Positions 30,980-59,857 of a stretch of DNA of 64,000 nucleotides are shown here, piece by piece; the stretch's first letter is position 1, and every line of letters starts with the position of its first letter. A program made the position numbers and the translations under genes. The stretch is taken from the NCBI GenBank assembly GCA_903826205.1, contig CAIKDP010000385.1, forward strand, positions 1-64,000. Reading direction: 5' to 3'. The notes under the pieces were generated by a model. The model did not search any database. It was given only the letters and a program-made list of their open reading frames with translations, and was not told the origin of the DNA. Source of the DNA: Akkermansiaceae bacterium. Lineage in GTDB: Bacteria > Verrucomicrobiota > Verrucomicrobiia > Verrucomicrobiales > Akkermansiaceae.

Positions 30980-31972
30980 TCACATGCCACCTTGACCCCC
31001 GGGGCCTGAACCGCCGCCACAGAAAGGTGGCACCAACTCGGGGTGGGCCAGCAGGTAGGCCGCCCACTCTTCCAGACTCAGCCTGCCGTCTTTGTTGGCA
31101 TCAGTCGCGGCGAGGATTTCAGCGAGCGAGAGAATGCCATTGTTATTCGCATCCAATGGCTTGAGCCAAGCCGGCACCGGGCGGTCTGGGTCCGGCAAGG
31201 GCTGCACTTGCGGTGGTGGGTCTTGCTTGGTGCCATCGGTTGGGCAAGTGGGGCGCACCAACTCGGGATGGGCCGTCAGGTAGGCCGCCCACTCGTCGAG
31301 GGTCACCTTGCCATCCGTATTGGCGTCGGCGGCGGCGAGAATTTCGGTGAGTTGGAGAATGCCGTCGCTATTTGTGTCCAAGGGTTTGAGCCAAGCTGGC
31401 ACCGGGGCCCCTGGTAGAGGCAGTCGCGGCACTTGCGTGCGCACCGGCGGTTCCACCGGGGTCATCGCGACAAGGAACTCAGCCAAGCTGATCTTGCCAT
31501 CCAAATTCGTGTCCAGATGGGTGATCATCTCCGCGGCGTGACCGCCGATGTTCGGGATAGCTGCCACTTCGGTGGCGTCCAGGAAGCCGTCGGCGTTGGT
31601 GTCGAGTTCGTTGAAGCGCTTGGTCCGTTCCGCCAGGATGTCTGCGGCGATGGCATCGCGGGCGGCTTGTCTTTCCTCGTCCGAAACGACGCCATCTTTA
31701 TTGGTGTCCAATGGGTCGGTCATGCCGGGGCGGGGCTGCCGGGCCCCCCTGCGCGTCGCCCGTTCATAGGCCTGATGTTCCTCGGTGGAGAGTTGACCGT
31801 CGGGGACTCCATCCTTGCCGGTGACATCAAATTCTTTGGCGAGGCCGTTGAGTTCACCGGTGCCGAAGGCTTGGCGGTTGGGGCCGGTTGGGGTTTGGGC
31901 GTCGACTCTCGCGACGGCGGCGGCGCCGCACATCAGGGCTGCGGTGAGCAAAGTGGAGGTGGTTCTTTTCAT
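30980..31972 (-). CDS. Exported multi-EF-hand protein
   Basis: DTNKDGVVSDEE, DTNADGFLDATE, DTNLDGKISLAE, DTNSDGILQLTE, DANTDGKVTLDE, DANNNGILSLAE, DANKDGRLSLEE; signal peptide. Confidence 0.9.
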   Translation of the reverse strand: MKRTTSTLLTAALMCGAAAVARVDAQTPTGPNRQAFGTGELNGLAKEFDVTGKDGVPDGQLSTEEHQAYERATRRGARQPRPGMTDPLDTNKDGVVSDEERQAARDAIAADILAERTKRFNELDTNADGFLDATEVAAIPNIGGHAAEMITHLDTNLDGKISLAEFLVAMTPVEPPVRTQVPRLPLPGAPVPAWLKPLDTNSDGILQLTEILAAADANTDGKVTLDEWAAYLTAHPELVRPTCPTDGTKQDPPPQVQPLPDPDRPVPAWLKPLDANNNGILSLAEILAATDANKDGRLSLEEWAAYLLAHPELVPPFCGGGSGPGGQGGM

Positions 31973-34724: not shown

Positions 34725-34816
34725 GTAGGCGCGTTGGTGACAACGCGGCGGGGATAAGGGTACAGCTCGCCGGGCAAATCAGCCTTGATCCCCCGCATTC
34801 TAACGAATGCGCCTAC
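34725..34816. repeat. BIME-like pair of GTAG-headed hairpins (family 2)
   Basis: + GTAGG-CGCGTTG-GTGA-CAACGCG (34725-34747) and - GTAGG-CGCATTC-GTTA-GAATGCG (34794-34816). Confidence 0.8.
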
Positions 34817-37800
34817 GGGGGTGGCGAGCTGGTCACTTTGAGCCGCAGGAACGCCTGCGGGCCTGTACCCGCCGGCAGGTTGAAGACATGCTCGCCACCC
34901 GTGCCGGTGTCCGGTGCTTCGAGCCAACTTCCCGGCAACAAGGTCGTGCTCCACTCCGCGCCATAGGTGATGCCGGTGACGCCGGCAGGCTGGTTGAAGC
35001 GCACCACAAACCGTCCGCCGAGCCATTGCCCCTGAGGCAAGCGACCGTTCATTGTGGCATCCAGCCCGAACGCGTAAACGATAAGGTCGGAGTCGCCACT
35101 TTGATCCGAACCCAAGACCGCCATGCCTTGCAAGCCGCTTGCGTGCGGCGTGAAACTCACCGACGGCAAGCCGACCACCGCGAGATTATGCTGCGCCGCC
35201 GAGCCGCTGGCCAGTGCCATCCACCGCGCGCCGGTCGTAAGTCCGCTCATGTCCACCCTGACCGGCACCGTGCTCGGCGTCGTGCTGTTGTTGCCCAACT
35301 GGCCGCTGGCATTGTCGCCCCAGGCGGCCAGCGTGTCATTCGCGCAGAGCGCGAAACTGTGGCTGCCGCCAATGCCGATTTGTGTTAGGGTAGTGCCGGC
35401 GGTGATTGCCGCCATGTCGATGGCCAGCGGGACATTGCTTTGGGTGATGCCGGTCACGCCTAACTGGCCGGTCTTGTTCCACCCCCAGGCCGTCAGCGTG
35501 CCATCGGCGCACAAGGCCAGGCTGTGCGCACCGCTGGCACGGACGGTTGTCACCTGTCTGCCCGCCAATGCACCGAATGCCCCGATCCCCACCGGCACCT
35601 TGCTGGAGGTCGTGCTGTTGTTGCCGAGTTGGCCGCGGTTGTTGTAGCCCCATGCTAACAAGGTGCCGTCGGTGCAGAGCGCCAGCGTGTGGTATTGGCC
35701 GGCAGATAGAGCAGCGATTTGTTTGCCGGCGAGCGCGCCGGACATATTCACTGCCACCGGCACCAGGCGGCCCGTGCTTGTCCCGTCGCCCAGCTCACCG
35801 TCATCATTGAAGCCCCAGCCAACCAGCGTGCCATCCGCACACAATGCGAAACTGTGATAGGCCCCGGCCGCCACCGTCACCACTTGCTTGCCGGCCAGCG
35901 CCCCGGTCGGTGCCACCAACACCGGCACCCGTCGCGTCGCCGTGTCGCCGGTGCCCAACTGGCCGTAGTTGTTATAGCCCCAGGCCACCACGCTGCCATC
36001 CGCGCACAGCGCCAGGTTGTGGAACGGACCGGCGGCAATGGCGATCACTGTCTTGCCTGCCAGCGCGCCGCTGCGATCCACCGCCACCGGCACGTTGCTG
36101 GGCGCGGAACCATTGTTGCCTAACTGCCCATACACATTGTAGCCCCAGGCCGCCAGCGTCCCGTCCGAGCACAGGGCCAGGCTGTGGAGATACCCCTCGG
36201 CCACGGCGGTGAACGTCCTGCCTGCCAGCACGCCCGTGGCATCGGCCGGAGTCGGTAGCAGGCGGCGGGTGGTGGAATTGTCTCCTAACTGACCGTAACT
36301 GTTGGACCCCCAGCCCACCACCTGGGTGGCCGCCCATTGCAGCACCAAATCATTGCCACTACCGCCATAGTAGTTGACCACAAAGTCATAAGTGGCACCA
36401 TTGAATGTCAGCCCGATCCGCTGGCCCTGCGCCAGGTTGGAAAACGCGCCGTGAATGAACCCGAGTCCCGTGTTGTTGACCATGGTTAGAATCGTGCCGG
36501 GGGTCGGCGCATAGTTAAGCCTCACATTCACCGGATAGCCGCCCGCGTCGAAGCCATTGGCCGTTACCGGCACATCACTGGCGGAGTTGAACACAAAGCT
36601 CTCCGGAAGCCGCGTCACCGTGATGACATAACTCATGGTGTCGATGCCGTCTTCCGCCGTGACCAAGACGGTGATGGTGTTATTGCCCACTGCCAGGGGA
36701 ATCGTCCCGCTGGCCGCGCCGCTGGTGACCGCTACGCCGTTGACTTGCACCGCCGCCGCCCGATGCTCGGTGGTGGGCGTTACCGTCAAGCTGTTAGTGG
36801 AGTACGGGACGGTGGCGATATAACTTGTAACGGAGGTCTTAAACCCCGGCAACATTGTCCCGGCGCTCAGGCCAAGGCCTGCCAGTCTCGGGTTATTGCT
36901 GAGGGCGATGAATGCGCGCAGGACCCCATCGGTGCCGGCGGCCAGCAGGTAGCTGTTGGAATAACTCAGCGGGCCGCCGGCGTTGAGCGTTTGCAGCAGG
37001 TGTCCGTCCGCCAGATCAAAGATCCAGGTGGTCAGCGTGTTGGAGATGGCCAGCCGGTCATTGAAGACGATCGGCTGGCTTAGCAAGGTGCCCGTCGCAT
37101 CTGTCTGATAGACCAGGCCCGGTGCGCCGTCCCGCAACGAGAAGCTGTGCACGGCGTTGCCTTGAATGGCAAAGGCCATTCCATAGCCGATGGCGAAGCT
37201 GCCGCTGAAGGCCCCGGGCTTCTGCCAGCGGATCAAACGCGACGGCAGATCGATGCAGATTGCCGCGGCGTTGTTGAAGACCATGGCGCTGTCGCCCGTC
37301 ACGGCAACAACGGTGTTGGCACTCCAGCCATTCCAATCCCAAGTGGTGGCCACCGACCACAGCGTGGCACCTGTCAGCGGACTGTGCTCTTTGAAAGACT
37401 CACCGACGCAGGTGTACAGGTGACCATTCGCAAGCGTCGGGCACCAGCCATCGTATTGCTCCAGGCGCTGGTTAAAGCGCCTGCTGCCATCGAAGTTGAA
37501 GCCATACATGCCGCCATAAGTCCCACCCTCGACAAATATCCCCTGCGCGGTGACAGCCGGGGCTTGATATTCTTCCCATTGGGCGGCAACCGGAGACTTC
37601 CAAAGCTGCTCCCCGGTGTCGCCGTTGAGGCAGAACAGGAATGAATCGTTTTCATTGTTCACCCGTTGGAAGTAAATCCGCCCGTCGTACACCGAGGGCG
37701 GATTGCTCGAGTAACTCGACGGGAACGGAAACGACCACACCGGAGTGCCTGTCGTGAGGTCTAACGCCGTCACTTCATTGCCTGCATCCCAACTTGCGCC

Positions 37801-40800
37801 CGGCACTATGAAGGCCCGCCCATTGGCAATGGCCGCACGATTCAGCGAACGTCCGCTCTTGACCGTCTGCGTCCATGCCGGAACCAATGAATAGCCATCC
37901 AGCGCGGCAGGGTGGCGCCCGTTGTGGGCTGGCGAACCGCCGAACGTTGGCCAATCCCCGGCGTAACGGCTGGCGGCAGCCACCGTGACGATGGCGTCCG
38001 CGGAGACCACCTCACCGACCACGTTGGTGACGCGGGCCTGATAGTGCCCGGCGTCGCTTAGGGCGATGTCATCAAACGCCAGTGATGAGCGGGTGGCGCC
38101 GCTGATGGGTTGGTCGTCATGAAACCATTGCCACCGGAACGGGCCGATGCCTTCCACCGCCGCCTGCAGGATCAATTCCCGGCCTTCGGAGGTGTCCCCA
38201 CCGAGCGGTTGCAATGTTAGAGAGGGCAGATCGGTGGCGGCCAGCACGGTGAGGCGGCAGGCATGATAGGACTGGGCACCGGCGCTGTCGCGGACCCGCA
38301 GTTGCACATCGCAGGCATCGCCGGGATTTCCCGCCGGCGTGCCTGATAGAACGGCATTGCCGTCGCCGCCATCGGCCAATTTGAGCCAGGCCGGGCCTTG
38401 CAGCAATTCCATCACCAGACCGGTGTTGCCGTCACCATCCTCGGCGTGGATGGCGGTGGCGAAGGCCCGGCCTGAAACGACCTGCGAGGGAATGTTCGCG
38501 AGGAAGCGCGGCGTCTGGTTGGCGGCGGGCTCCACCCGGAACAACCACGCCGGTTGCGCGCTGCCGCCGGCGGCCAGCAGCCAACCGTCACGCACGGCCA
38601 GCGCGCAGCCAAACGAACCGAAGCCTGAACTAACAAGACTGACCGCGGGAGTGAGCGCAGGACCCGCGACCCAGGCGGTGCCGGAGCGGCGGAAACTGAA
38701 CACCGCGCCACTGCTGCCGAGCGTGCAGGTGGCGGCGGAATCCCCGATAAACAACTGGTCACCTAACAACGCAAGCGCGCAGCCGAAGGAGGTTGAACTG
38801 CCGGCAACGGCGCTGCGGTTGATTGATGCGGACTGGGCCCACTGGCCGGCAGCATTTTTCGTATAGATTTCCACCGCGCCTGAATCGCTGATGGTGGCCA
38901 GGGTGTTGCCCGCCAGCGCCAGCGCCTTGCCCGAGACGCCGGCGGAGGTGGCCCCGGCAATCGGGATCTTCTGCGTTTGCGTCCACAGGCCGGTGGTGGT
39001 GGAGCGGCTGAAGGCATAGATGCATCCCACCCGGATGAGGGACGGACCCCGACCCGGCGCGGCGATGACCGCTTGATTGCCCTCCATGGCAATCGCGTAG
39101 CCGAACCCGTCGCCAATTGATCCGTCGGCCGCGCTGAACGTCTGTGTCAGCACCGAGGCTGGTTCGGTGATGTATGCCCCCACTCTGCCAATCTTGCTGG
39201 AAGCATAGCCGGTTCCAGCGAGCATCAGATTGCCTGACGCGCTTAGACCGGTGCCATACGCCTCGCCGGCCACCGGTGTCGCGAGGGTGAGCGGCCCGCC
39301 GCTTTCCCAATAGCCGGCCTCCAGCGGCCGGTAAACATGGACGGCGCCGCCATCCGTGACCGGAGTGTCATAACCAAAGGCCCCGACGGCGGATTTGCCG
39401 GTGTCCAGCGCCACGGCGGTGGCGGAATTGGGCAGTTCGGTTAGCGTGCGTGACAACTTGACATCGCTGGTGGTGGGATTGAAATCGTAGAGCAGCGCTG
39501 AATAGCTGCTGCCAACTAACAGATTACGGTCGGAAATGGCGACGCCCTGCCCTGCGCTCCCGGTGCCGACCATGGGCAATGCCGGACCCGTCAAGAATTG
39601 GATCCCGAACGATTGCACGTTGCCCTTGGTGGTGCCGCCGCCACCAGTCACCGCATCGACCCGCCAAGTGTACAATTTCCCGGCCGCCAGCGGCGCGGGC
39701 AGATCATAGTAAGTGTTGGAAACCGTCGCCACAGGCGTCGTCATGGCCAGCAAGGCCGCCGCATCCGCCGCAATGAATACCCGATAGGCGGTGGCCCCCG
39801 CCACCGGCGACCAGGTGAGGCGGGGCGGGCTGTCCGCCAGCGTCTGGCCGGGACGCGGCCACGGGCCGGGTAAATCCGTTAGACCGGCTAGCGGGGTGGA
39901 GACCAGCGTCTTGGTGGTGGCATTGAAACGCACCAGATAGGCGTCGTTGGCCGAGACCGCGGCAATGGAACTGGAAAACGGCAGGGTGGCGGCCTGGCTG
40001 CCGCTGTCGCTCCACCACATCTGGTCCGCTCCGATCGCCAGATCCCCGCTGCGGTTGGTGGCATGGATTTCGGCCGGCATCCGGGCGAGCGCGTGCAAAT
40101 CGTCGGCAGCGAAGGAATATCCCTGCCAGAACAAGCGCGTGCCGTCGCCACTGAGCAAGAGGCTGTAGCTGCCATAGGCGAGTATGGGGCCGGCGGCCAC
40201 CGATTCGAAGGTGTCGCCGGAAATATCGCATTTGAGAATCCTGGCGCCGGAGCTGTTAGCGTCACAGTGATAGTAATACTTGCCGGAGGGGTCGATTTCG
40301 CAGTCACCTGCGCGGACTGAGCCAAGGGTCGCGAGCTTGACCCCGGTGGCGGCATCGTAGAGGTCGGCGGTGACCCATTGGTTCCATCCTTCGGATAGGA
40401 TCCGGCCGGTGGACGTGGCTTCCAGCCTGTTGGCGTCCGCTACCAGCATCAGCGGCGGCAGTTCGGTCCACTTGGCCAGATCAATCACGCAGGTGCCGGT
40501 GTGCTGCCAGTTTGTCATGTTAGGGACATAGAGGCGTTCGTGGACCGGATCGAGATCCGCGTCCGTGGGGCCGGTGCCGACGGGCAGGGAGCGCAGCATG
40601 GTGCCGGTGGCGGCGTCGATTTCCACCACCCGCGCGAAGGCTTCGCCGCTGGCGGCGCGGTTGATGCCGTAAACAACCGGGCGGGTGGGATGGGCCACAA
40701 GCTGGGTGATGTCGATGTCCACGATGCGGAACGTCACCGGCAGGTCGAACGCCGCGGCGCCGGACACCACGCGCAGCACTGTCTGATAGGGACCGGTCGC

Positions 40801-43800
40801 CAGCGATCCCGGATCGAAGCGCAGCCGCAACGGCTGCGGGGTGGTGCCGGAGGCGGCCACCGGCGTGAGCCATGAGGGCAGCGAAGCGGCCGAGACCGAC
40901 CACGGTTGGGATGTTGTCAGGGTTGTGGTGATGGGAAAATCCAGCGTGGCCACCGCCATGCCCTTGATGATGACATGGTTGATAGAGGGGGCCATTTCGA
41001 TCGGTGCGATGCGGAACGACCACACTTTGCCCGGCCGCATGCCCATGGCGTAAACGGTGTCAACCCGCCAGTAATACACCGTGTCTAACATAAGATTCGG
41101 CTGTGTGCCGGTCCACGCCGGGGTCGGGCTGCTGCCCAGATATTCGGGACTGGTTTCGGTGGCACTAGAGACCGCATCGCGGTTGCTGCCAAAGAACACG
41201 CGGAAAGTGCTGGCCAGCGGTTCATGGCTCCAGGCGAGCGGTTGATGGGTGCCCACCACCGAGCTGCCATCGGCGATCGACGGCGTGAGATCCTGCGGCG
41301 GTGAAGCGACCAGTGCCAGCGAGCCGCCGCACAATTTCACGAACCGTTCCTTGGCTGTTAGATTGGTTGTATTCACCAGCACCGGCAGATTGCTTTGGAT
41401 GGTGCTGTTGTTGCCGAGTTGGCCGCTGTTGTTAGTCCCCCAGGCGGCCAGCGTGCCATCGGAGCAGAGCGCGTAACTGTTGGTGGCGGTCGCGGCGAGG
41501 GCGGTCACCGTTTTGTTGGCAAGGACGCCGCTGCGGATGACCGCAACCGGCACGTTGCTGTCGGTCGTGGAATTGTTGCCGAGTTGGCCGTAAGAGTTGA
41601 AACCCCAAGCGGCCAGGGTGCCATCGGAGCAGAGCGCCAGGCTGTGGCCGCCGGTGGCGATTGCGACGATGGTCTTGCCTGCCAGAACGCCACTTTGATC
41701 CACCGCCACCGGCAGCGACGAATGGGTGGTGCTGCCGTTGCCCAACTGGCCGTTGCCATTTAGTCCCCAGGCGGCCAGTGTGCCGTCCTCGCAAAGGGCC
41801 AGGCAACTGCCGCTGCCGGCGGCGATCGCGGTTACGCGTTTGCCATTGAGCACACCACTTGTATTCAGCGCGACCGGCACTGTGGAGGATGTGTTGGTGC
41901 CATTGCCGTGCTGGCCGTATTCATTCAACCCCCATGCAACCAGCAAGCCATCCGCGCAAAGAGCCAGATTGTTGCCATTTCCGGCGGCCACCGCAACGAC
42001 CTGCCGGTCTTTCAAAATCCCCGTGCGATCCACGGCGACCGGAGCATAGGTGTTGTAGCCGCTCCATTGACCGTAGCCCCACGTGGCCAGGGTGCCGTCG
42101 GCGCAAAGCGCAAGCGAATGGTGAGTGCCCGCGGCGATCCCGGTGACCGATTTGCCGGCCAGGACTCCGCTCTGGTCGACCGTGAGCGGCACCACGCTGT
42201 ATGAGGACATTTGGGTGTCGCCCAATTGACCGTAGCCGTTGTTGCCCCATGCTGCCAGCGTGCCGTCCTGGCACCGGGCAAGGGCATGGCTCAACCCGCT
42301 GGTGGCGCTAACAATCATCTTGTTGGCAAGGGCCCCGCTCACGTCAACCGGTACCGGCACCAAGGCACCGCTGGTGGTGCCATTGCCCAGTTGTCCGGAT
42401 GAATTGTCACCCCACGCCAACAGTCGCGTGTTTGCCCAGTGCAATACCAGATCGTTGCCAGTGCCGCCAAAGTAGTCGGCCACGAAAACATAGGTGGTGC
42501 CGGCGTAAGGGATCCCTACCGCCTGGCCCTGGGTCAGGTTGGTGAACCGGCCTTGGATCGCATTTGTCCCGGTGTTGTTGATTGCGGTGAAATCGGCCCC
42601 CGGCGCCGGAGCGAAGGTCAACGCGAACTCGGCCGCAACGCCCGTGGCCAGAAAAGCGTCCGCCGTCACCGGCACCGTGGTGGTGGAACTGAACGTGAAG
42701 GTTTGCGGCAGGCGGGTGACCATCATTGTGTAGGTCATCGTGTTGATGCCATCGGCGGCGGCGGTCACGACGCTGACCGGGTTGTTGCCCACCGCGAGCG
42801 GGAGCGGGGCGCTGGCGGACCCGGACGCGACGCTGTTGCCGTTGACCTTGATCATGGTGGTGGCGATTTCGGCCTGCGGGGTTACTGTTAGACTGGTGCT
42901 GGCAAAGGGCACCGTGGCGATGTAGGCGACGGTGCTCGGGTTGAACACCGGTGCCAGCGTGCCGGCGCCGGGAGTCAGCGCCGCGAGTCTGGACAGACTG
43001 GTGGTGGTGAAGGTCATGTCCGGTCCCCGCGAGTCCCCGCCGGCATTGGTCGCCACCACCCGGAAATGATAGGTGGCACCGGCGGTTAGATTGGTGGGAT
43101 TGAGGGCCACCGTGGTGGTGGTCGTGTCGCTGAGAGAAGCGGGTGTGGCGGCAACTGTTAGGCCGTAGGCCTCGGTTGGCCCATATTCAAAGGTCACGGC
43201 AGTGATGGAGCCTTTGGCATTCACCTGGCCATTGAAGATGGCCCCGGTGTCGGTGATGGCGGTGGCCGCCAGGGTGGTGGCCACCGGCGGGGGCGGCCTG
43301 GCTGACAGGGCGAGGTTGTGGCTGCTGCCACAGGACACGGTGGCAAGCCGTTCCCCACCGGCGAGCATGGGGCTGCTCACCAAGGTCGGAAGGGTGGAGT
43401 TGGCGCTGCTGCCATTGCCCAACTGGCCGCTCGTGTTGTAGCCCCAGTCTGCGGTCGTACCAGTCGCGCAGTGTGCGGCACTGTGGTACTGGCCCCCGCC
43501 AATCGCCGTGATCGTCTGGCCGGTCAGTACTCCGGACTTGTTCACCAGCACCGGCACCTTGGCAGTGGTGGTGACGCCGTTGCCCAACTGGCCGTAGGTG
43601 TTGAATCCCCAGGTGGCCAGGGTGCCATCCGCGCACAGCGCGATGCTGTGGTAGTATCCGGTGGCGATAGCCGTGACGGACTTGCCGGCAAGCACGCCGC
43701 TCAGGTCCACCGACACGGGCGCACTGGCGCTGGTCGTCGTGTTGTTGCCTAACTGGCCGTTGGAATTATAACCCCAGCCCGCCAGCGTGCCGTCGGCGCA

Positions 43801-46800
43801 AAGCACCAGGCTGTGCGTGCTGCCGGCCGCCACTGCGGTGATCGTCTTGCCGGCGAGCACGCCGCTCCGGTTCACCAGCGACGGTCGGTAGTTGTTGTTG
43901 GTGGTGCCATCACCCAACTGGCCGTTGCCGTTGCCGCCCCATACCGCGAGGCTGCCATCGGCGCACAGGGCCAGGTTGTGATAGGCGCCGGCGGCGATGG
44001 CGATGACCGTCTTGCCGGCGAGCACGCCGGATTGGTCCACCAACACCGGCTTGGTTTCGCCGTTGTAGGCGGCCGTGGCATTGCCGAGTTGCCGGCTTTG
44101 GTTGCTGCCCCACGCGGCCAGCGTGCCGTCCGCACACAAAACCAAACAGTGGTCGTCGCCGACGGCGATGGCGCTCACCTGCTTGCCGGCGAGCACTCCG
44201 CTTTGGTCCACCGGCAGGGCCACCGTGCTCATCGCTCCGTTGAAGCTGCTCATCTGGCCGGCGGTGTTCTTGCCCCACTGGAACAACGTGCCATCCGCGC
44301 ACCATACCAGATTGCGGGAGCCGCCCGCGACCGCGGCAAGGATCGTCTTGCCCGCGAGTGCGCCGCTCATGTCCACCAGGACCGGCACATTGCCCGCCAC
44401 CGTGCTGTTGTTACCGAGTTGGCCGCTGGCGTTGTCGCCCCAGGCGAAGAGCCGGTTGTTCGCCCATTGCAAAACCAGGTCGTTGCCACTACCGCCATAG
44501 TAGTTGACCACAAAGGGGTAGGTCACCCCGTTATAGGCTAGATCCACCAACTGCCCCTGCGCCAGGTTGTCAAAGGCCCCCTGAATGAATCCCGTGCCGG
44601 TGTTGTTGATCACGGTGAGGCTGGATCCCGCCACTGGCACATGATTCAAGACCAAGGCAGCCGTGCAACCGGCGACGGCTACCGTCCCGGCCGTCACGGG
44701 CACATCGGTGGCGGAGTTGAACACGTAAGCCTCGGGCAAACGTGTCACCGCCAAGGTATAGGTCTGGGTGTTGATAACATCCACGCCGGTAACCGTGACA
44801 CCAATGGTATTGATGCCAAAGGCCAGGTCGATCACACCGGTGGCCGTGCCGATGGATGCGGCACCCCCATTGACCTTGACCGAGGATGACGCGTTGGCGG
44901 CAGCCGCAGTCACCGTGAGACGGTTCGTCGTCTGGGACACCATCATCTGGTAGCTCAATGTGGCAGCCGCAAACGCGGGCGCCAGTGTGCCGCTGCTCAC
45001 CGACAAACCGTCAAGGGCGGCAAAATAGGTGGTCGTGAAGGTCATGTCCTCGCCGACGCTCGTGCCGTACGGATTTGTCGCGATGATCCGATAGTGATAG
45101 AGGGTCGCGGGTGACAACCCGTTGACGGCGGCACTTGTGGCGGTGGCGACGGTGCCGGTCACCGCCGCGGGAGTGGCCGTGAGCGTGGCCCCGTAGGAAG
45201 TCGTTAGACCATATTCGAAGGACACCGAGGTGCTGTTGCTGTTGGCGTTGACGCTGCCGTTGAGCGTGGCGCTGGTGTCCATAAGGCCGGTGGCCGCCAG
45301 CGTCGTTGCCTCGGCGTGCGGTGGCATGGCCACCACCGCCAGGTTGTGCGACGCCAAGGGACCGGTGACTGCGGCGGTGAAGGACTCGCCGGTTCTGAGC
45401 AGGGTGGTGTTGACCGGCACTGCGGTGGGAGTGTAGCCGCTCACCCCCCCGTTGCCCAAGCGCCCGCTGTAACCATTACCCCAAGTGGCCAGCGTGCCAT
45501 CGCTGCAACGGACCAAATTGTGCTCTGCCGCCGCAAACGCGCTGCTGACGGTCTTGTCAGCAAGCGCCCCGGTGGCGGTGAGCACCGGCACCGGCAGTGG
45601 GCTCAAAGACATGGAGCCGTTGAATGGCACGGTACTGTTGCCTAATTGATAGGTCGCGTTCTGACCCCATGCGGCCAGCATGCCATCCGTGCAAAGCGCC
45701 AGAGAGTGCGCGCTCCCGGCCGCAATGCCAGCGACCGCCTTGCCCGCCAGCGTGCCGCCGCGATCCACCAGGACCGGCACGGTGCTGTCGGCATAGGCTC
45801 CCGTGCCCAACTGGCCGGACAGTCCAGAGCCCCACGCCGCGATTGACCCGTCCGAGCAGAGCGCCAACGCGTGGGCGGAGCCGGCCGCGATGGCGAGGAT
45901 TTGTTTTCCTAACAGCACGCCGGAACGATCCACCAGTATGGGCACCGTGCTTGCTACAGTGGTGCCGATGCCCAGCTGACCGTTGGCGTTGTCACCCCAG
46001 GAGGCGAGCGTGCCATCGGTGCATAGTGCCATGCTGAAATCGCCGCCGGCGGCAATCGCGGCGATCCGCTTGCCGGCCAGCGCGCCCGTGACCTTCACCC
46101 CCACCGGCACACTGCGGTTGCTGGTGCCACCCTCACCCAACTGGCCGGAACTGTTGCGGCCCCACGACACCAGCGTGCCGTCGGCGCAGAGCACGAGGTG
46201 GTGGGTCCTGCCGCTGGCTGCGGCCACCGCAAACTTGCCGGCCAGCACCCCGCTGCGGTCCACGGCCACCGGCACCTTGCTGCCGGTCGTGGAGATGTTG
46301 CCGAGCTGGCCGTAGCCATTGGAACCCCAGGCGGCCAAAGTGCCGTCAGCGCAAAGAACCAGGCTCTGGCCGATGCTGTATGCTGCATCACCACCCGTGG
46401 ACATGGCAATGACCGATTTGCCGGCGAGCACGCCGGAGGCGTCCACTGCCACCGGCACGTTGCTATCGGTGGTGGTGTTGATGCCGAGTTGCCCGGAGTA
46501 GTTGAACCCCCAGGAGGCCAAACGAGTGTTCGCCCATTGTAGCACCAGATCGTTGCCATTTCCCCCGCAGTAGTTGGCGAAGAATGCGTATACCCCGCCG
46601 TTGTAGGCCAGCTTGACCACCTGCCCCTGCGCCAGATTGGAAAACGCGCCCTGTATCGGCTCCCTGCCGGTGTTGTCCACCACGGTGAGATCGACACCCG
46701 CCAGCGGCGCGAAATTCAGCGCGAACGATGCCGTATTGCCCGTGGCCACAAACCCGCTCGTCGTCACCGGCACTTCGCTGGCGGCATTGAACGTAAACAC

Positions 46801-49800
46801 CTGTGGCAGCCGCGTCACCGTCACTGTGTATGTCTGCACGTTGATGCCGTCCACGGCGGTGACTCCAAGAATGACCGGGTTGTTGCCAACCGTTAGACCG
46901 AGCGCGGCGCTGGCGGTCCCGGAGGCCACCGGCACCCCGTTCACCCTGACGATCGCTCCCATGCTTGTCACGACCGGAGTGAAGGTGAGGGTCGCGGTGG
47001 CGAAGGGCACCGCAAGCGCGTACTTGGTGATGTTAGGGGAAAACGCCGGCAGCAAGGTCCCGTTGCCCGCGGTCAGTCCCGCGAGCGTGGCGAAGCTGCT
47101 CGTGGTGAACGTCATGTCCGCACCCTTCACCGTGCCGCCCGCGCTGGTGGCTACGATCCGATAGTGATAGGTTGCGCCCGACAACAAGCCGCTGAGGACC
47201 GCGGTGGATGCCGTGAGGGTGGTGCCCGTTGCGCTCGCAGGGACGGCCGCCACGGTGGTGCCGTAACCGGTCGTCAGGCCGTATTCAAACGACACGGCGG
47301 TGCTGCTGCCGCAGGCATTCACGCTGCCGTTGAGGGTGACGCCGGTGTCGGCAAGCGCGCTGGCTGCCAGCGTGGTGGCCGCGGGCAATGTTGGCGAGGC
47401 CACCAGCGCCAGCTTGTAGCTGGCCCCACACACCCCGGAGACGGATCGCTCGCCGGCACGCAGTGAGGTCGTGTTGGTCAATTCCGGCACCGAGCCGTAC
47501 GTCCAACTGCCTGTGCCATTCCAGCCCCATTCGGCCAATGTGGCATCCTCGCAGCGCACGATATTCTGATAGTTGGCGGCGGAGATGGCGGTGACGGTCT
47601 TGCCGGTCAGCACGCCAGTCCGATCCACCAGCACCGGCCGGGTTTGGTCGGAATAGGGCGGCCCCGCGTTGCCTAACTGGCCATTGTCATTGTTGCCCCA
47701 TGCGGCCAGTGTGCCATCCGCGCACAACGCCAGGCTGTGAATCCGCCCGGCGGCGATGGCGGTGACCGTCTTGCCGGCCAGCACGCCGCTGCGGTCCACC
47801 AACACCGGCAGCGGGCTGCTATAGGCACTGCCCTCGCCCAACTGACCGTCTTCATTCATCCCCCATGCGGCCAGCGTGCCATCCGCACACAGCGCCAGCG
47901 AATGATTGCTCCCGGTCGCAATGGCAATCACCGTCTTGCCGGCCAGTACGCCGCTGCGATCCACCAATACCGGCACGTTGCCTGGCGTCGTGCTGTTATT
48001 GCCTAACTGACCATATGTGTTAACTCCCCAGGCGGCCAAGGTTCCATCCGCGCAAAGCACGAGATTGTGTGCCCCTCCGGCGGCGATGGCGGTGACCGTC
48101 TTGCCGGCCAGCACGCCCGTCCGGTCCACCAATACCGGCAGGTTGCTATATGGCCGGTTACTGGAGCCGCCGCTGCCAAGCACGCCGGAATCAGTCCCCC
48201 AGGCAGCCAGCGTGCCATCGTTGCACAACACCAGCGAGTGAGCCTCGCCGGTGGCTATGGCGACCACCATTTTGCCGGCCAGCACACCGGTCCGGTTGAC
48301 CGCCACCGGTGAGGCGCTTGCCCCCTGGGTGTTGTTACCTAACTGGCCGGAATTATTGTATCCCCAAGCGGCCAGCGTGCCGTCCGCGCACAGCGCGAGG
48401 GTATGACTGTTTTGCGAAGCGATCGCGGTGATCGACTTGCCGGCAAGCACCCCGGCGGTGTCCACCGCCACAGGCACCGCGCTGGCAACCGTGGTGCCGT
48501 TGCCCAGCTGGCCATAGTTGTTAGATCCCCATGCCAGCACCCGCGTGTTGGCCCATTGCAGAACCAAATCATTGCCACTGCCTCCGTAGTAGTTGGCCAC
48601 GAAGGAGTAGGGGATTCCGCCAAAGGTCAGCTCCACCACCTGGCCCTGAGTCAGGTTGTCAAAGGTCCCCTGAATCAAGTTCGAGCCGGTGTTCCGCACC
48701 ACCGTTAGATTGGTGCCCGGTAGCGGCGCGAAGTTCAGCGCCAAGGCGGCCGTGTTGCCCGTCGCCACAAAATCCCTAACCGTCATCTGCACATCCGTGG
48801 CCGAGTTGAACGCAAACACCGCGGGAGGTCGCACCACCGTCACGCTGTAGGTTTGGGTGTTGCCGTCGCCGGCGGCAACCTCAATGGTGATGGGCGTGTG
48901 GCCGACGCCAAGCGTGATGGGGCCGCTGGTCGTGCCGGAGGTCACCGCCACGCCATTGACCTTCACGGTGGCGGTGCCGGATTGGGTCACCGGCGTGAAC
49001 AGGATGCTGGCGGTGGCGGATGGCACGATGACCTCGTAGCTGGTGTTGATGCCGGAGAAGGCCGGATTGAGCGAAGCGCTGCTTACCCCCAGGCTGGCCA
49101 GGCGAGCCAAGGTGCTCGTGGTGAACGTCATGTCGGCTCCCCGCACCGTGCCCCCGGCGCTTGCCGCCACCACCCGGTAGTGATAAGTGGTGCCTGAAAG
49201 CAGGCCGCTGAGCGTCGCCGAGGTCGCCGTGGCGGTGGTGCCGGTCACGGTCGCCGGGGTGGTCGCCACGGTGGTGCCATAAGTGCTGGTCAGGCCATAT
49301 TCAAAGGTGACGGCGGTGCTGCTGCCATTGGCGGTTACGGTCCCCATCAGGGTGGCGCCCGTGTCGATCACCGCGGTTGCCGCCACCGTGGCCGCAGTCG
49401 GCAGCGGCGGCGAAGCCACCAGTACCAAGGCGGATGAAAACCCATTGCCGGTGCTTTCCGGAATAAAGCGCTCGCCAGTCCGCAGCGCGGTCGTATCGAC
49501 GAGCACCGGAATGCTGGTGTCCCAAGTGCTGTTGTTGCCCAATTGACCAGAGTAATTTTCGCCCCACGCGACCAGCGTGCCATCTGAGCACATCGCCTGA
49601 TTGCCGCCGCCGGCAATCGCCGTCACCGTCTTGCCGGTCAGCACACCCGTCCGATCCACCGCCACCGGAATTTTGGAATCATACTGCCGGTTGTTGTTAC
49701 CTAACTGGCCATAGTTGTTGTCGCCCCATGCGGCGAGGGTGCCGTCCGAGCATAGCGCGAGGCTGTGGCGCCATCTGGAGGAAATGGCGGCCAGGGTCTT

Positions 49801-50919
49801 CCCGGTGAGCGCGCCGGTCTTGTTCACCAGCACCGGAATCTGGCTCCGATCATAAATCGGATTGCCCAACTGACTGTCAAAATTGGTCCCCCACGACGCC
49901 AGCGTGCCATCCGCGCATCTGGCCAGACTGAAATTCGTCGCGGCCGCGACAGCAACGATCTTCTTGCCGGCAAGCACGCCGGACTGATTCACCAAGACCG
50001 GCACCGGGCTGCTGGTGGTGCTGTTGTTGCCCAATTGCCCATAGTTATTGTTACCCCAGGCCGCGGCGGTTCCATCCGCGCAGGCCACCACGACGTGGTC
50101 CAGGCCGGCGGAAATGGCGGTGACGGTCTTGCCAGCGAGTGCTCCCGTTTGATCGACCTTGGCCGGCAATCCGGTGGTGGTCGCCCCGCTGCGGCCCAGA
50201 CAATAGCCGCCCCAAGCCGCCAGGGTTCCGTCCGCACACAACACCAGGCTGTAGCCGTCGCCGGCACCCACCGCAATAATCGACTTGCCAGCGAGGACCC
50301 CGCTTGTATCGACCGCCACCGCCACACTGCTGTTGGTCGTGGTGTTGTTGCCCAGTTGGCCGTTGGCATTGTTGCCCCAGGCAGCCAAGCTGCCGTCCGC
50401 ACAAAGTGCCAGACAGTGGGATGCGCCGCGGGCTGTGGCAATCACCGTCTTGCCCGCCAGCACCCCGGTCATGTCGACCGCCACCGGAATGAGTGCCTGC
50501 CGGCTGTTGCCATTGCCCAACTGGCCTGAATTGTTAGTGCCCCATGCCAGCAAGCGGGTGTTGCCCCAGTGCAACACCAGATCGTTGCCCGTGCCGCCGA
50601 AATAATTCGCCACATACGGATAGAAAATGCCGTTGAATATCAGATTCACCTTCTGCCCCTGGGCCAGGTTGTCGAAGGTGCCTTGAATGCTGGCGAGTCC
50701 GGTGTTATTCACCACCGTCAGGTTGGTCCCAACCGGCGGCGCGAAGCTCAGGGTGAACTTCACCGAGTTGCCCGTCGCCGTATAGGTGGCGTTCGTTACG
50801 GGAACGTCCGCAGCGTTGCTGAAACTGGCCGGGACGGTCACTGCGGATGCCGCCATTGCCGATAAGATCAACAGCAGGAGGCCGATGAATATGCGCGGGA
50901 TGGGATGGGGGGGTCTCAT
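34813..50919 (-). CDS. Giant exported RCC1-repeat multi-propeller protein (~5,370 aa)
   Basis: Signal peptide; six super-modules each starting FNSATDVPVT...GxGNDLVLQWANTR followed by RCC1 repeats (WGxNxxGQLGNxxT..P..VD.SGVLAGKTV.AIAAG..HSLALCADGTLAA), cadherin-like/FN3-like linkers, and a central insert with YVTN-like, FG-GAP-like, Ig-like and PQQ-like segments. Confidence 0.92.
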   Translation of the reverse strand: MRPPHPIPRIFIGLLLLILSAMAASAVTVPASFSNAADVPVTNATYTATGNSVKFTLSFAPPVGTNLTVVNNTGLASIQGTFDNLAQGQKVNLIFNGIFYPYVANYFGGTGNDLVLHWGNTRLLAWGTNNSGQLGNGNSRQALIPVAVDMTGVLAGKTVIATARGASHCLALCADGSLAAWGNNANGQLGNNTTTNSSVAVAVDTSGVLAGKSIIAVGAGDGYSLVLCADGTLAAWGGYCLGRSGATTTGLPAKVDQTGALAGKTVTAISAGLDHVVVACADGTAAAWGNNNYGQLGNNSTTSSPVPVLVNQSGVLAGKKIVAVAAATNFSLARCADGTLASWGTNFDSQLGNPIYDRSQIPVLVNKTGALTGKTLAAISSRWRHSLALCSDGTLAAWGDNNYGQLGNNNRQYDSKIPVAVDRTGVLTGKTVTAIAGGGNQAMCSDGTLVAWGENYSGQLGNNSTWDTSIPVLVDTTALRTGERFIPESTGNGFSSALVLVASPPLPTAATVAATAVIDTGATLMGTVTANGSSTAVTFEYGLTSTYGTTVATTPATVTGTTATATSATLSGLLSGTTYHYRVVAASAGGTVRGADMTFTTSTLARLASLGVSSASLNPAFSGINTSYEVIVPSATASILFTPVTQSGTATVKVNGVAVTSGTTSGPITLGVGHTPITIEVAAGDGNTQTYSVTVVRPPAVFAFNSATDVQMTVRDFVATGNTAALALNFAPLPGTNLTVVRNTGSNLIQGTFDNLTQGQVVELTFGGIPYSFVANYYGGSGNDLVLQWANTRVLAWGSNNYGQLGNGTTVASAVPVAVDTAGVLAGKSITAIASQNSHTLALCADGTLAAWGYNNSGQLGNNTQGASASPVAVNRTGVLAGKMVVAIATGEAHSLVLCNDGTLAAWGTDSGVLGSGGSSNRPYSNLPVLVDRTGVLAGKTVTAIAAGGAHNLVLCADGTLAAWGVNTYGQLGNNSTTPGNVPVLVDRSGVLAGKTVIAIATGSNHSLALCADGTLAAWGMNEDGQLGEGSAYSSPLPVLVDRSGVLAGKTVTAIAAGRIHSLALCADGTLAAWGNNDNGQLGNAGPPYSDQTRPVLVDRTGVLTGKTVTAISAANYQNIVRCEDATLAEWGWNGTGSWTYGSVPELTNTTSLRAGERSVSGVCGASYKLALVASPTLPAATTLAASALADTGVTLNGSVNACGSSTAVSFEYGLTTGYGTTVAAVPASATGTTLTASTAVLSGLLSGATYHYRIVATSAGGTVKGADMTFTTSSFATLAGLTAGNGTLLPAFSPNITKYALAVPFATATLTFTPVVTSMGAIVRVNGVPVASGTASAALGLTVGNNPVILGVTAVDGINVQTYTVTVTRLPQVFTFNAASEVPVTTSGFVATGNTASFALNFAPLAGVDLTVVDNTGREPIQGAFSNLAQGQVVKLAYNGGVYAFFANYCGGNGNDLVLQWANTRLASWGFNYSGQLGINTTTDSNVPVAVDASGVLAGKSVIAMSTGGDAAYSIGQSLVLCADGTLAAWGSNGYGQLGNISTTGSKVPVAVDRSGVLAGKFAVAAASGRTHHLVLCADGTLVSWGRNSSGQLGEGGTSNRSVPVGVKVTGALAGKRIAAIAAGGDFSMALCTDGTLASWGDNANGQLGIGTTVASTVPILVDRSGVLLGKQILAIAAGSAHALALCSDGSIAAWGSGLSGQLGTGAYADSTVPVLVDRGGTLAGKAVAGIAAGSAHSLALCTDGMLAAWGQNATYQLGNSTVPFNGSMSLSPLPVPVLTATGALADKTVSSAFAAAEHNLVRCSDGTLATWGNGYSGRLGNGGVSGYTPTAVPVNTTLLRTGESFTAAVTGPLASHNLAVVAMPPHAEATTLAATGLMDTSATLNGSVNANSNSTSVSFEYGLTTSYGATLTATPAAVTGTVATATSAAVNGLSPATLYHYRIIATNPYGTSVGEDMTFTTTYFAALDGLSVSSGTLAPAFAAATLSYQMMVSQTTNRLTVTAAAANASSSVKVNGGAASIGTATGVIDLAFGINTIGVTVTGVDVINTQTYTLAVTRLPEAYVFNSATDVPVTAGTVAVAGCTAALVLNHVPVAGSSLTVINNTGTGFIQGAFDNLAQGQLVDLAYNGVTYPFVVNYYGGSGNDLVLQWANNRLFAWGDNASGQLGNNSTVAGNVPVLVDMSGALAGKTILAAVAGGSRNLVWCADGTLFQWGKNTAGQMSSFNGAMSTVALPVDQSGVLAGKQVSAIAVGDDHCLVLCADGTLAAWGSNQSRQLGNATAAYNGETKPVLVDQSGVLAGKTVIAIAAGAYHNLALCADGSLAVWGGNGNGQLGDGTTNNNYRPSLVNRSGVLAGKTITAVAAGSTHSLVLCADGTLAGWGYNSNGQLGNNTTTSASAPVSVDLSGVLAGKSVTAIATGYYHSIALCADGTLATWGFNTYGQLGNGVTTTAKVPVLVNKSGVLTGQTITAIGGGQYHSAAHCATGTTADWGYNTSGQLGNGSSANSTLPTLVSSPMLAGGERLATVSCGSSHNLALSARPPPPVATTLAATAITDTGAIFNGQVNAKGSITAVTFEYGPTEAYGLTVAATPASLSDTTTTTVALNPTNLTAGATYHFRVVATNAGGDSRGPDMTFTTTSLSRLAALTPGAGTLAPVFNPSTVAYIATVPFASTSLTVTPQAEIATTMIKVNGNSVASGSASAPLPLAVGNNPVSVVTAAADGINTMTYTMMVTRLPQTFTFSSTTTVPVTADAFLATGVAAEFALTFAPAPGADFTAINNTGTNAIQGRFTNLTQGQAVGIPYAGTTYVFVADYFGGTGNDLVLHWANTRLLAWGDNSSGQLGNGTTSGALVPVPVDVSGALANKMIVSATSGLSHALARCQDGTLAAWGNNGYGQLGDTQMSSYSVVPLTVDQSGVLAGKSVTGIAAGTHHSLALCADGTLATWGYGQWSGYNTYAPVAVDRTGILKDRQVVAVAAGNGNNLALCADGLLVAWGLNEYGQHGNGTNTSSTVPVALNTSGVLNGKRVTAIAAGSGSCLALCEDGTLAAWGLNGNGQLGNGSTTHSSLPVAVDQSGVLAGKTIVAIATGGHSLALCSDGTLAAWGFNSYGQLGNNSTTDSNVPVAVIRSGVLANKTVTALAATATNSYALCSDGTLAAWGTNNSGQLGNNSTIQSNLPVLVNTTNLTAKERFVKLCGGSLALVASPPQDLTPSIADGSSVVGTHQPLAWSHEPLASTFRVFFGSNRDAVSSATETSPEYLGSSPTPAWTGTQPNLMLDTVYYWRVDTVYAMGMRPGKVWSFRIAPIEMAPSINHVIIKGMAVATLDFPITTTLTTSQPWSVSAASLPSWLTPVAASGTTPQPLRLRFDPGSLATGPYQTVLRVVSGAAAFDLPVTFRIVDIDITQLVAHPTRPVVYGINRAASGEAFARVVEIDAATGTMLRSLPVGTGPTDADLDPVHERLYVPNMTNWQHTGTCVIDLAKWTELPPLMLVADANRLEATSTGRILSEGWNQWVTADLYDAATGVKLATLGSVRAGDCEIDPSGKYYYHCDANSSGARILKCDISGDTFESVAAGPILAYGSYSLLLSGDGTRLFWQGYSFAADDLHALARMPAEIHATNRSGDLAIGADQMWWSDSGSQAATLPFSSSIAAVSANDAYLVRFNATTKTLVSTPLAGLTDLPGPWPRPGQTLADSPPRLTWSPVAGATAYRVFIAADAAALLAMTTPVATVSNTYYDLPAPLAAGKLYTWRVDAVTGGGGTTKGNVQSFGIQFLTGPALPMVGTGSAGQGVAISDRNLLVGSSYSALLYDFNPTTSDVKLSRTLTELPNSATAVALDTGKSAVGAFGYDTPVTDGGAVHVYRPLEAGYWESGGPLTLATPVAGEAYGTGLSASGNLMLAGTGYASSKIGRVGAYITEPASVLTQTFSAADGSIGDGFGYAIAMEGNQAVIAAPGRGPSLIRVGCIYAFSRSTTTGLWTQTQKIPIAGATSAGVSGKALALAGNTLATISDSGAVEIYTKNAAGQWAQSASINRSAVAGSSTSFGCALALLGDQLFIGDSAATCTLGSSGAVFSFRRSGTAWVAGPALTPAVSLVSSGFGSFGCALAVRDGWLLAAGGSAQPAWLFRVEPAANQTPRFLANIPSQVVSGRAFATAIHAEDGDGNTGLVMELLQGPAWLKLADGGDGNAVLSGTPAGNPGDACDVQLRVRDSAGAQSYHACRLTVLAATDLPSLTLQPLGGDTSEGRELILQAAVEGIGPFRWQWFHDDQPISGATRSSLAFDDIALSDAGHYQARVTNVVGEVVSADAIVTVAAASRYAGDWPTFGGSPAHNGRHPAALDGYSLVPAWTQTVKSGRSLNRAAIANGRAFIVPGASWDAGNEVTALDLTTGTPVWSFPFPSSYSSNPPSVYDGRIYFQRVNNENDSFLFCLNGDTGEQLWKSPVAAQWEEYQAPAVTAQGIFVEGGTYGGMYGFNFDGSRRFNQRLEQYDGWCPTLANGHLYTCVGESFKEHSPLTGATLWSVATTWDWNGWSANTVVAVTGDSAMVFNNAAAICIDLPSRLIRWQKPGAFSGSFAIGYGMAFAIQGNAVHSFSLRDGAPGLVYQTDATGTLLSQPIVFNDRLAISNTLTTWIFDLADGHLLQTLNAGGPLSYSNSYLLAAGTDGVLRAFIALSNNPRLAGLGLSAGTMLPGFKTSVTSYIATVPYSTNSLTVTPTTEHRAAAVQVNGVAVTSGAASGTIPLAVGNNTITVLVTAEDGIDTMSYVITVTRLPESFVFNSASDVPVTANGFDAGGYPVNVRLNYAPTPGTILTMVNNTGLGFIHGAFSNLAQGQRIGLTFNGATYDFVVNYYGGSGNDLVLQWAATQVVGWGSNSYGQLGDNSTTRRLLPTPADATGVLAGRTFTAVAEGYLHSLALCSDGTLAAWGYNVYGQLGNNGSAPSNVPVAVDRSGALAGKTVIAIAAGPFHNLALCADGSVVAWGYNNYGQLGTGDTATRRVPVLVAPTGALAGKQVVTVAAGAYHSFALCADGTLVGWGFNDDGELGDGTSTGRLVPVAVNMSGALAGKQIAALSAGQYHTLALCTDGTLLAWGYNNRGQLGNNSTTSSKVPVGIGAFGALAGRQVTTVRASGAHSLALCADGTLTAWGWNKTGQLGVTGITQSNVPLAIDMAAITAGTTLTQIGIGGSHSFALCANDTLAAWGDNASGQLGNNSTTPSTVPVRVDMSGLTTGARWMALASGSAAQHNLAVVGLPSVSFTPHASGLQGMAVLGSDQSGDSDLIVYAFGLDATMNGRLPQGQWLGGRFVVRFNQPAGVTGITYGAEWSTTLLPGSWLEAPDTGTGGEHVFNLPAGTGPQAFLRLKVTSSPPP

Positions 50920-51150
50920 ATATAGCCTGCGTGATTGTTCGTTTTGATCTTCAATCGGGTGCGGTACGCTATTGCTGTGGGTTGTAGGCAGGTGCATGCG
51001 TCATCCGCCACACGTGGAATCTTGCCGGATCAATTGAGCCACCTGCCACACTTGGAAGGTGGTGGTTTCCATCCTTGCCATCAACCGAAAAACCCTCCGG
51101 CTAGCAAAATATCAGCCGCCTGGCGGAATGCGCTCAATTTATGGCAGGAT

Positions 51151-51223
51151 ATGCGGGGGATGACCGGTGGCAGCTCACCGGGCCGCGGACTTGTCCCCCC
51201 GCATTCTCACAAATTCGTCCGTC
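51151..51223. repeat. Decayed relative of the 34.7-kb BIME element
   Basis: GCGGGGGATGACCGGTGGCAGCTCACCGGG...CCCCCCGCATTCTCACAAATTCGTCCGTC aligns with GCGGCGGGGATAAGGGTACAGCTCGCCGGG...CCCCCGCATTCTAACGAATGCGCCTAC. Confidence 0.6.
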
Positions 51224-51318: not shown

Positions 51319-53484
51319 ATGAAAGCCCGGTTTAATCATCATCTGTTGCCGCTGTGGGTTATCACTGTGAGTGTCGCAGTCGTCACCGTATCCGGTCACG
51401 CCATGGCCGCGAGCCCCCAATATTGGAACCCGGTCGGCGGCGGGGGCGACGGCCCCTGGGGCACCGGTCCGGGTGACAAGAATTGGAACACGACTCCCGG
51501 CGCCGCGACCGGCAACACCGTTTGGCCGGACACCGGCAACGAGGTGGCGGTGTTTCAAAATGCCCTTGGCGGCACGGCCACGGTGTTCACCCCGGTGCAA
51601 ACCGCCGGCATCCGCCAACAAGCGGGCAACTACACGATCGACGCGGAAACCGTCACACTGGTGCAAGACAACGCCGCGGCCAAGCCCTTCATCCACGTGC
51701 AATCCGGCACCCTCACCATCGCATCCACCCTTGATGGCAGCCACGGCCTGCTCAAGACCGGCAGCGGCAACCTCGTGCTGAGCGTCGCCAATAGTTATGC
51801 CGGAACCACCGCGGTCACGGCCGGTACCCTCACCCTGACCGGCAGCCTCGCCAGCGCCGTGGTGGACATCGCCGCGGGCGCCACTCTAACAGATTCCAAC
51901 GGCGGTCTCGCCGCCGGCGCCGTTCTAACCAATGCGGGCGCCCTGGCGCTCACGGCAGCCGACACGGTTGGCAGCTTCTCCCAATCCGCCACCGGCACCC
52001 TGATAAGCAGCGCGACTCTAACTGTCAGCGGCCTGGCGACCTTCGGCGGCACCCTGCAACTCAACGAATTCGGTCCGCCAACGATTCCCGTTTTCATGCC
52101 GATCCATGTGGTGGCCGCCGGCGGTTATGCCGGCAATTTTGCCACGCTGGTTGAAAACCTTGAGGGTGCGGTGTGGTTCAATCCGCGCAATGGCGACGCC
52201 ATGCGCCTTGTCAGTCCGACAACCTCTGGCCACACGTTGTATGGAGCCACGGCCAACCAAACTTCCGCCTGGGTGGCGCTATATGACGATGGGATTGATC
52301 CGGGCGTCACCAACATCACCCATGTGCCCGGCGGCAATCCGGAATATTCGATCAGCAGCGGCCTCGGGGATGCCGACCACCCGGACTTGTTGTGGGCGCT
52401 GACCGCCAGCTTCACCCCCGCCGGCCTCAACCCGAGCCTTCTCAACCACCTCTCGCCGGAAGTCTATGTCGGACTCTCCGACTACGCGATCCAAGCCACC
52501 CGCGTCCACCAGCGCAGCGCTTTCTCCGCACCGGCACTGCCAGCCGTCCGCCCATCTGAGAGCAAGGCCGGCAGCAAGGGCGGTTGCAAGGGCGGTTGCA
52601 AGGGCGCACTACCTAACAAATCCGCAGCGCCATGGGAGTTTTTCGCCGCCACCGACTATTGGCATGTGCAATCCAGCCGCTCCCACAATCAGGCAGACTA
52701 TGAACTGAGCGGCTTCGGCGTCCTCGGTGGCGCACGCACCCACGTGACGGAGCGCATCCGCCTGGCGGCCTATCTCGCCGCGGATGCCGGCGACATCAGC
52801 GGCCACATGATTGATGCCGACAGCGCCGGTTGGTCGCTCGGCCTGCTCGGCGAGGCCCTGCTCGACGAGCCAACCCGCACCTGCCTCAGCGCCGGCATTT
52901 CCTATGGCCGGTACTTGTTTGATGGCACCCGCAGCAGTGTGGCCGCCGATAGTGGCGGTTGGTCTGCCGCCCCAACCGGCTTCTCGGATGTCGCCTCCGA
53001 TGCGTTGGAAATGTTTGTCGGGGTGGACAGTTTGGTCTATCACAATGACCACTTCCGCCTGATTCCGGCTTTCAGCCTGCACGCCGCCAGCGGGACGATG
53101 GATGGGTTCACAGAGAGCACCGGTTCCGCGCCAGGATCACCGCTCGCCCTTGTGGTGAACCGTAACCACTACGCGTCCGTACTCGCCGACCTCAGCCTGC
53201 GCGCCGAGGTGGACGTTACTCACCAACTGATGGTGTGGGCCCTGTTCGGGGTGAGCGGCGGAATCAATGACGCCCCGCAGATTCTCACCGCCCGCCTTGC
53301 CCAGGGTCGCCGTCCGTTCCAAGTCGAGGCCGAGGGACTAGCCAATGACTCATGGTTTTTCGGGCTGGGTGCCACCTACAAGATCAGCGGCTCAGTCAGC
53401 CTTGCGCTCGGCTATCGCGCCGAGTTCCGTGCCGATGCCGACCCCCAGAGCAGCCTCGGTCTGGCGTCCTCATTCAGGTTCTAG
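51319..53484 (+). CDS. Autotransporter (beta-strand-repeat passenger + C-terminal beta-barrel)
   Basis: Signal peptide; GLLKTGSGNLVLSVANSYAGTTAVTAGTLTLTGSLA; barrel-like C-terminus ending SSFRF. Confidence 0.87.
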   Translation: MKARFNHHLLPLWVITVSVAVVTVSGHAMAASPQYWNPVGGGGDGPWGTGPGDKNWNTTPGAATGNTVWPDTGNEVAVFQNALGGTATVFTPVQTAGIRQQAGNYTIDAETVTLVQDNAAAKPFIHVQSGTLTIASTLDGSHGLLKTGSGNLVLSVANSYAGTTAVTAGTLTLTGSLASAVVDIAAGATLTDSNGGLAAGAVLTNAGALALTAADTVGSFSQSATGTLISSATLTVSGLATFGGTLQLNEFGPPTIPVFMPIHVVAAGGYAGNFATLVENLEGAVWFNPRNGDAMRLVSPTTSGHTLYGATANQTSAWVALYDDGIDPGVTNITHVPGGNPEYSISSGLGDADHPDLLWALTASFTPAGLNPSLLNHLSPEVYVGLSDYAIQATRVHQRSAFSAPALPAVRPSESKAGSKGGCKGGCKGALPNKSAAPWEFFAATDYWHVQSSRSHNQADYELSGFGVLGGARTHVTERIRLAAYLAADAGDISGHMIDADSAGWSLGLLGEALLDEPTRTCLSAGISYGRYLFDGTRSSVAADSGGWSAAPTGFSDVASDALEMFVGVDSLVYHNDHFRLIPAFSLHAASGTMDGFTESTGSAPGSPLALVVNRNHYASVLADLSLRAEVDVTHQLMVWALFGVSGGINDAPQILTARLAQGRRPFQVEAEGLANDSWFFGLGATYKISGSVSLALGYRAEFRADADPQSSLGLASSFRF

Positions 53485-57013: not shown

Positions 57014-57044
57014 AAGAAGGATCCTCCGTGGGTCTGGGACATCG

Positions 57045-58379: not shown

Positions 58380-58421
58380 GTTTTTGTTAGTAAGTTTTTC
58401 GCCAGACGATCCGGCTGATCT

Positions 58422-59726: not shown

Positions 59727-59857
59727 GGGGAGAGTTCCTGTTTGAGGAGAATACGGGTTCGCTGATGGAGGTGAGCCCTGTGCGTGAAGGCTAACGAATC
59801 GGGGAGCCAATGGGGCATCCCGCCTTGGTCAGGCGTCAACTGCCGGACCGTCCGGAT

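Follow-up and report, generated by a model that had tools for sequence, protein, structure and literature searches.

Seven-bladed beta-propellers of the RCC1/RLD type are known from UVR8, the RLD of HERC2, RCC1 itself and the bacterial protein BLIP-II, and one survey of highly repetitive propellers ranked RCC1/BLIP-II as their third most populated group (PMC9218822). A bacterial RCC1-repeat protein predicted to be extracellular, MXAN_0889, was reported from outer-membrane vesicles of Myxococcus (excerpt of PMC4158809), a YVTN propeller is found in a Methanosarcina S-layer protein (1l0q), and very long bacterial ORFs with few annotated domains have been proposed to act as extracellular adhesins in Omnitrophota and Chlorobium (PMC10066038). 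In this work we analysed a stretch of 64,000 nucleotides (the window) from a freshwater lake bacterium of the Akkermansiaceae type, which encodes a giant secreted protein of 5,394 residues. This protein shares the blade motif, the number of seven blades and the fold of the RCC1/RLD proteins, but differs from them in that it carries six propellers in a single secreted chain, with a beta domain ahead of each. It resembles MXAN_0889 in its predicted location, whereas no array of super-modules (beta domain, propeller and linker), no insert of other domains and no C-terminal tail domain such as the one described below (Z) is mentioned for MXAN_0889 in the cited excerpt (PMC4158809). The Methanosarcina protein corresponds to only one of the classes present in the giant, that of its YVTN segment, and, in contrast with the Omnitrophota and Chlorobium giants (PMC10066038), nearly all segments of the window protein could be assigned. 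Judging from its sequence, the giant is probably a secreted, modular binding scaffold that is likely to be held at the cell surface, a reading that we favour with some reserve.

The giant ORF occupies positions 34813–50997 of the minus strand (5,394 codons, no internal stop). Its likely start is Met27 at position 50919, which is where the original prediction had placed the end of the gene, and this residue opens a good predicted Sec signal peptide, MRPPHPIPRIFIGLLLLILSAMAASA (amino acids 27–52, 50842–50919, minus strand, with cleavage after AASA in the translation). The six units of the protein are 48–60% identical to each other in the propeller and 51–66% in the beta domain, no exact repeat in the gene is longer than 41 bp, and third-position GC (0.77–0.80) is even across the array and the insert, which argues against an assembly collapse. 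Because the frame is also unbroken, we consider that the gene is real and carries no obvious assembly artefact. Elsewhere in the window, an ordinary RND efflux set (AcrB-type pump, HlyD-type adaptor and TolC-type outer-membrane protein) lies at 53927–59810 and a 330-aa protein with several EF-hand motifs at 30980–31972, both on the minus strand.

The domain order of the protein can be written (B R7 f c)4 B R7 [insert] c B R7 Z, where B is the beta domain, R7 the RCC1 propeller, f a fibronectin type III (fn3) domain and c a cadherin-like domain. A pattern search of the frame finds GGxGNDLVLxW six times, with last codons starting at 50566, 48553, 46534, 44464, 42436 and 36334, and with a spacing of 2.01–2.07 kb for the first five; the positions and the spacing of about 2.0 kb originally reported for this signature were thus correct within one base. 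Exactly seven WG blades, about 55 amino acids apart, follow each match (42 blades in all, by regular pattern search). Each of the six units opens with a 90-aa beta domain, followed by its seven blades; on the minus strand, the beta domains B1 to B6 lie at 50563–50832, 48550–48819, 46531–46800, 44461–44730, 42433–42702 and 36331–36600. In each of the six units, RCC1, RCC1_2 and the RCC1-like domain score far above the Pfam cut-off; the repeats also exceed the curated cut-off of the RCC1 repeat family (PF00415/PF13540). Propellers 1 to 5, placed by Pfam and the blade search, lie at 49414–50556, 47377–48543, 45331–46524, 43294–44454 and 41290–42426, and propeller 6, the conserved terminal one, placed by the blade search and the unit tree, at 35170–36324 (minus strand). 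Linkers 1 to 4 (48817–49404, 46798–47388, 44728–45336 and 42700–43296, minus strand) were delimited by Pfam, which finds the Cadherin-like domain PF12733 in the linkers; linker 1 comprises an fn3-like and a Cadherin-like domain, and a further Cadherin-like domain found by Pfam opens the C-terminal unit (36598–36903, minus strand). The proposed order of a beta domain, an RCC1 propeller and an fn3-like plus cadherin-like linker is supported.

The structure of unit 2 (beta domain, propeller, fn3 and cadherin-like domains), predicted from an alignment of 60 units, agrees with this arrangement: the model is confident (mean pLDDT 93, pTM 0.82), it supports the limits of propeller 2 and linker 2, and it shows a separate seven-bladed RCC1 propeller followed by linkers, as the original prediction had expected of a super-module. 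In Foldseek the propeller of unit 2 matches UVR8, the HERC2 RLD and RCC1 with E values between about 1e-32 and 1e-27 and a target TM that reaches 0.90. The closing of seven blades into one propeller is thus seen in the model for unit 2; the other units have the same number of blades. Two features distinguish these propellers from those of the RCC1/RLD proteins. First, 36 of the 42 blades of the giant (34816–50997, minus strand) have a Cys eight residues before the W, directly ahead of the DG turn, the other six being the first blades; family-wide, this Cys is present in 1,471 of 1,656 blades (89%). Second, the beta domain ends in a strand, GNDLVLQW, that continues into the first blade and, in the alignment, replaces the LALCADG strand ahead of the WG; on this sequence criterion, closure of the propeller seems to be provided by the beta domain. 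Compared with solved structures, the beta domain gave only weak matches to actinohivin (E 0.36), which were set aside. A protein of another locus (L109:2–15406) has 14 blades per beta domain, (B R14)4 B R7, a layout that suggests paired propellers for each beta domain.

Ahead of unit six, an insert of 1,460 amino acids (36901–41286, minus strand) replaces the fn3 domain of linker 5; relatives that span it in full are encoded twice in G025 and also in G027. Its parts, all on the minus strand, are a YVTN-like segment (39913–40722), which has no Pfam match above cut-off and was assigned by a profile match to the Methanosarcina propeller 1l0q (E 1.4e-9), an FG-GAP_2 segment (38578–39642; Pfam 39.1 bits for a cut-off of 23), an I-set Ig domain above the Pfam cut-off (38023–38277) and a PQQ_2 (BamB-type) segment (36904–38022; 50.8 bits for a cut-off of 27.6). 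The insert that had been proposed at about 36.8–41.3 kb is thereby confirmed in position and composition. A model of it, built from three sequences, is poor (pLDDT 54, below 50 across most of the YVTN segment and moderate to low in the FG-GAP segment), so that the propellers of the insert are predicted from sequence profiles; the Foldseek matches of this model were discarded. Accordingly, the claim that the protein combines four kinds of beta-propeller holds for sequence classes, while the predicted fold confirms separate propellers for the RCC1 unit only. Elsewhere, G025 is the only genome with the full insert, which it carries in a tandem pair of genes (3,466 and 2,438 aa); these have no array but retain c B R7 Z. 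G027 carries a diverged form without RCC1 units, and parts of the insert, among them the YVTN and PQQ segments, are also seen in other families of the order. The presence of the same insert without the array in another species indicates that the window protein is a mosaic. Simple inheritance of the insert and the terminal unit together from an ancestor common with G025 is not supported, since the last unit of the window protein groups with units of G028, G018 and L063 and not with the G025 C96 pair.

On the opposite strand, with a start codon 399 bp from the giant gene, lies an autotransporter gene (51319–53484, plus strand) whose product has a signal peptide, a PATR repeat and an AT beta-barrel (PF03797, 63.7 bits for a cut-off of 26); the giant itself has no PF03797 barrel in Pfam. 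An autotransporter gene of this kind is head-to-head with a super-module gene in seven related genomes (G000, G002, G017, G025, G028, G035 and G073), with start codons 155 to 337 bp apart in the G002, G017, G025, G028, G035 and G073 pairs, an arrangement suggestive of a modular system for binding at the surface. In addition, the autotransporter is divergent from the adjoining FGE-sulfatase/Z gene in G087 and in tandem order in G085, while for G018 and G074 the pairing runs into contig ends. The N-terminus of the autotransporter is found in nine genomes, all of them among the 22 of 74 that have beta domains, a co-occurrence with a chance of about 5e-6 by our own arithmetic, which ignores kinship and genome size. 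The divergent intergenic region contains an 11-mer, CAGGATATGCG (51145–51155, plus strand), in the same place and orientation in the window, G028 and G035; in the 1.9 Mb compared it occurs only there, about one chance match being expected. A promoter-like pair, TTGACC-N17-TATGCA, lies closer to the autotransporter start than this 11-mer. Alternatively, the autotransporter might serve the giant in the outer membrane, as its receptor, docking site or translocator; such a two-partner system would agree with the head-to-head order in seven genomes, with the shared 11-mer and with flanks that differ where compared (those of G035, G017, G073 and G087 have no homologue in common with the flanks in the window at 1e-10). 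Nevertheless, an AT-type barrel with its own passenger is not known to act as a translocator in trans, one autotransporter copy (G017:C34) is unpaired, and many proteins ending in Z belong to genomes without the autotransporter, so that we consider this explanation unlikely. In the surface-held binding scaffold that we favour, the autotransporter would probably be co-expressed with the giant and serve the same surface function.

The last 97 or so residues of the giant form a portable, unnamed domain, Z (34816–35112, minus strand; also at loci L164–L193), defined by alignment. Within the order, 48 of 59 genomes encode Z, with up to 25 copies each, and the domain ends 0–6 residues from the stop codon in 30 of the 30 loci examined; in the genome from which the window comes it also terminates a GDSL lipase and an S8 protease with a P-domain. 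A signal peptide is plausible, by a crude rule, in 6 of the 9 Z proteins with a readable N-terminus; a further positive was judged false, as its Met lies inside an RCC1 blade. Together, the signal peptide of the giant and a tail common to a lipase and a protease support the secretion first proposed for this protein. Z resembles the type IX C-terminal domains (Por_Secre_tail), which are also short, portable, located at the extreme C-terminus and shared by varied secreted proteins, but 18 members of Z gave no Pfam or NCBIfam match even at an E value of 0.1. At the C-terminus of the giant, no type IX CTD model matches in Pfam or NCBIfam, and we found no anchor motif and no obvious transmembrane helix; a search of the genome for the SprA translocon gave no match and was uninformative, because the control was equally silent. 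From its position and distribution in sequences, we infer that Z is a candidate sorting or anchoring domain. More broadly, Z might be the tail by which an as yet undescribed pathway of export or anchoring, widespread in Verrucomicrobiota, recognises its proteins, the giant and the head-to-head autotransporter forming a dedicated surface system that uses Z with exchangeable propeller payloads; this extension is speculative, and we give it rather little weight.

The company of Z also bears on whether the giant would scaffold hydrolysis rather than adhesion, its propellers and insert orienting polysaccharide or peptide substrates in a secreted degradative or catalytic complex. The lipase and the subtilisin-type protease that share its tail, the resemblance of the PQQ-type segment to enzyme folds at the profile level and the FGE-sulfatase payload in G087 all agree with such a role. 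However, the window protein has no Pfam enzyme domain above cut-off, and its PQQ_2 match belongs to the BamB-type binding class, with no dehydrogenase model at cut-off, which makes a degradative complex improbable. The role of adhesin or binding scaffold is itself inferred, and no known catalytic or ligand motif from which a partner could be named is conserved in the propellers.

The original prediction implied that the architecture was unique, which it is not: the super-module family, (B R7 f c)n Z with n from 1 to at least 13, occurs commonly among related genomes, larger members exist (8,362 aa with 13 units in G028, from a cut ORF; 7,355 aa in G017 and 7,231 aa in G035, with 11 units each), and the insert joined to the final unit is encoded by genes of its own in G025. 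The beta domain was identified in 31 of 59 relatives; within the genus, 22 of 74 genomes carry it (E 1e-20). In the GTDB collection, all 65 named loci are Verrucomicrobiota MAGs, many of them from lakes and many labelled Akkermansiaceae. We found no description of the super-module family in the literature searched; this apparently undescribed protein family is highly variable. A differently built giant, with a 9,820-aa frame, long RCC1 blade runs (R23) and irregular blade counts, is present in G017 (C12:200000–239999; L051, L052). In a tree of 226 units, 17 of which directly precede Z, 13 of these 17 fall in one 14-tip clade (support 1.0) regardless of what lies upstream. The fourteenth tip is the last unit of a contig-cut G028 protein, and the clade contains no known internal unit; the Z-preceding units of L058, L075, L085 and L088 lie outside it. 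The label 'terminal' changes 6 times on the tree, compared with at least 14 times in 500 shuffles. These observations indicate that the C-terminal unit is the conserved part of the protein and the remainder a variable payload, which in G087 is an FGE-sulfatase-type domain. Only 39 of 207 units of multi-unit proteins have their nearest relative within their own protein, which indicates that units have been exchanged between proteins rather than freshly duplicated; recent tandem duplication within the window gene is rejected, as this holds for none of its six units. A near-neutral expansion, in which repeat proteins grow and recombine while selection hardly acts on how many units they have or which ones, would account for this shuffling and for a copy number that varies widely across species, but it is very unlikely given that seven blades are held in nearly all units, that the frame is intact across 16 kb, and that the 11-unit proteins of G035 and G017 retain orthologous units in register at several positions.

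In the binding scaffold that we favour, the giant would be exported by its predicted Sec signal peptide, and rigid Ig- and cadherin-like linkers, to judge from the predicted structure of one unit, would space the seven-bladed propellers like beads on a string, each propeller possibly offering a separate binding face. The C-terminal unit (cadherin-like domain, beta domain, propeller and Z) may hold the protein at the surface or direct it there, while the N-terminal part, as the comparison between genomes shows, is an exchangeable payload of further RCC1 units, of the YVTN/FG-GAP/Ig/PQQ block or of an FGE-sulfatase-type domain. Giant bacterial genes usually have few recognisable domains; for one class of them, this work gives a concrete anatomy, a fixed C-terminal unit with an exchangeable propeller payload, and it names a candidate C-terminal sorting domain of Verrucomicrobiota, Z, together with a candidate partner gene, in lake bacteria.
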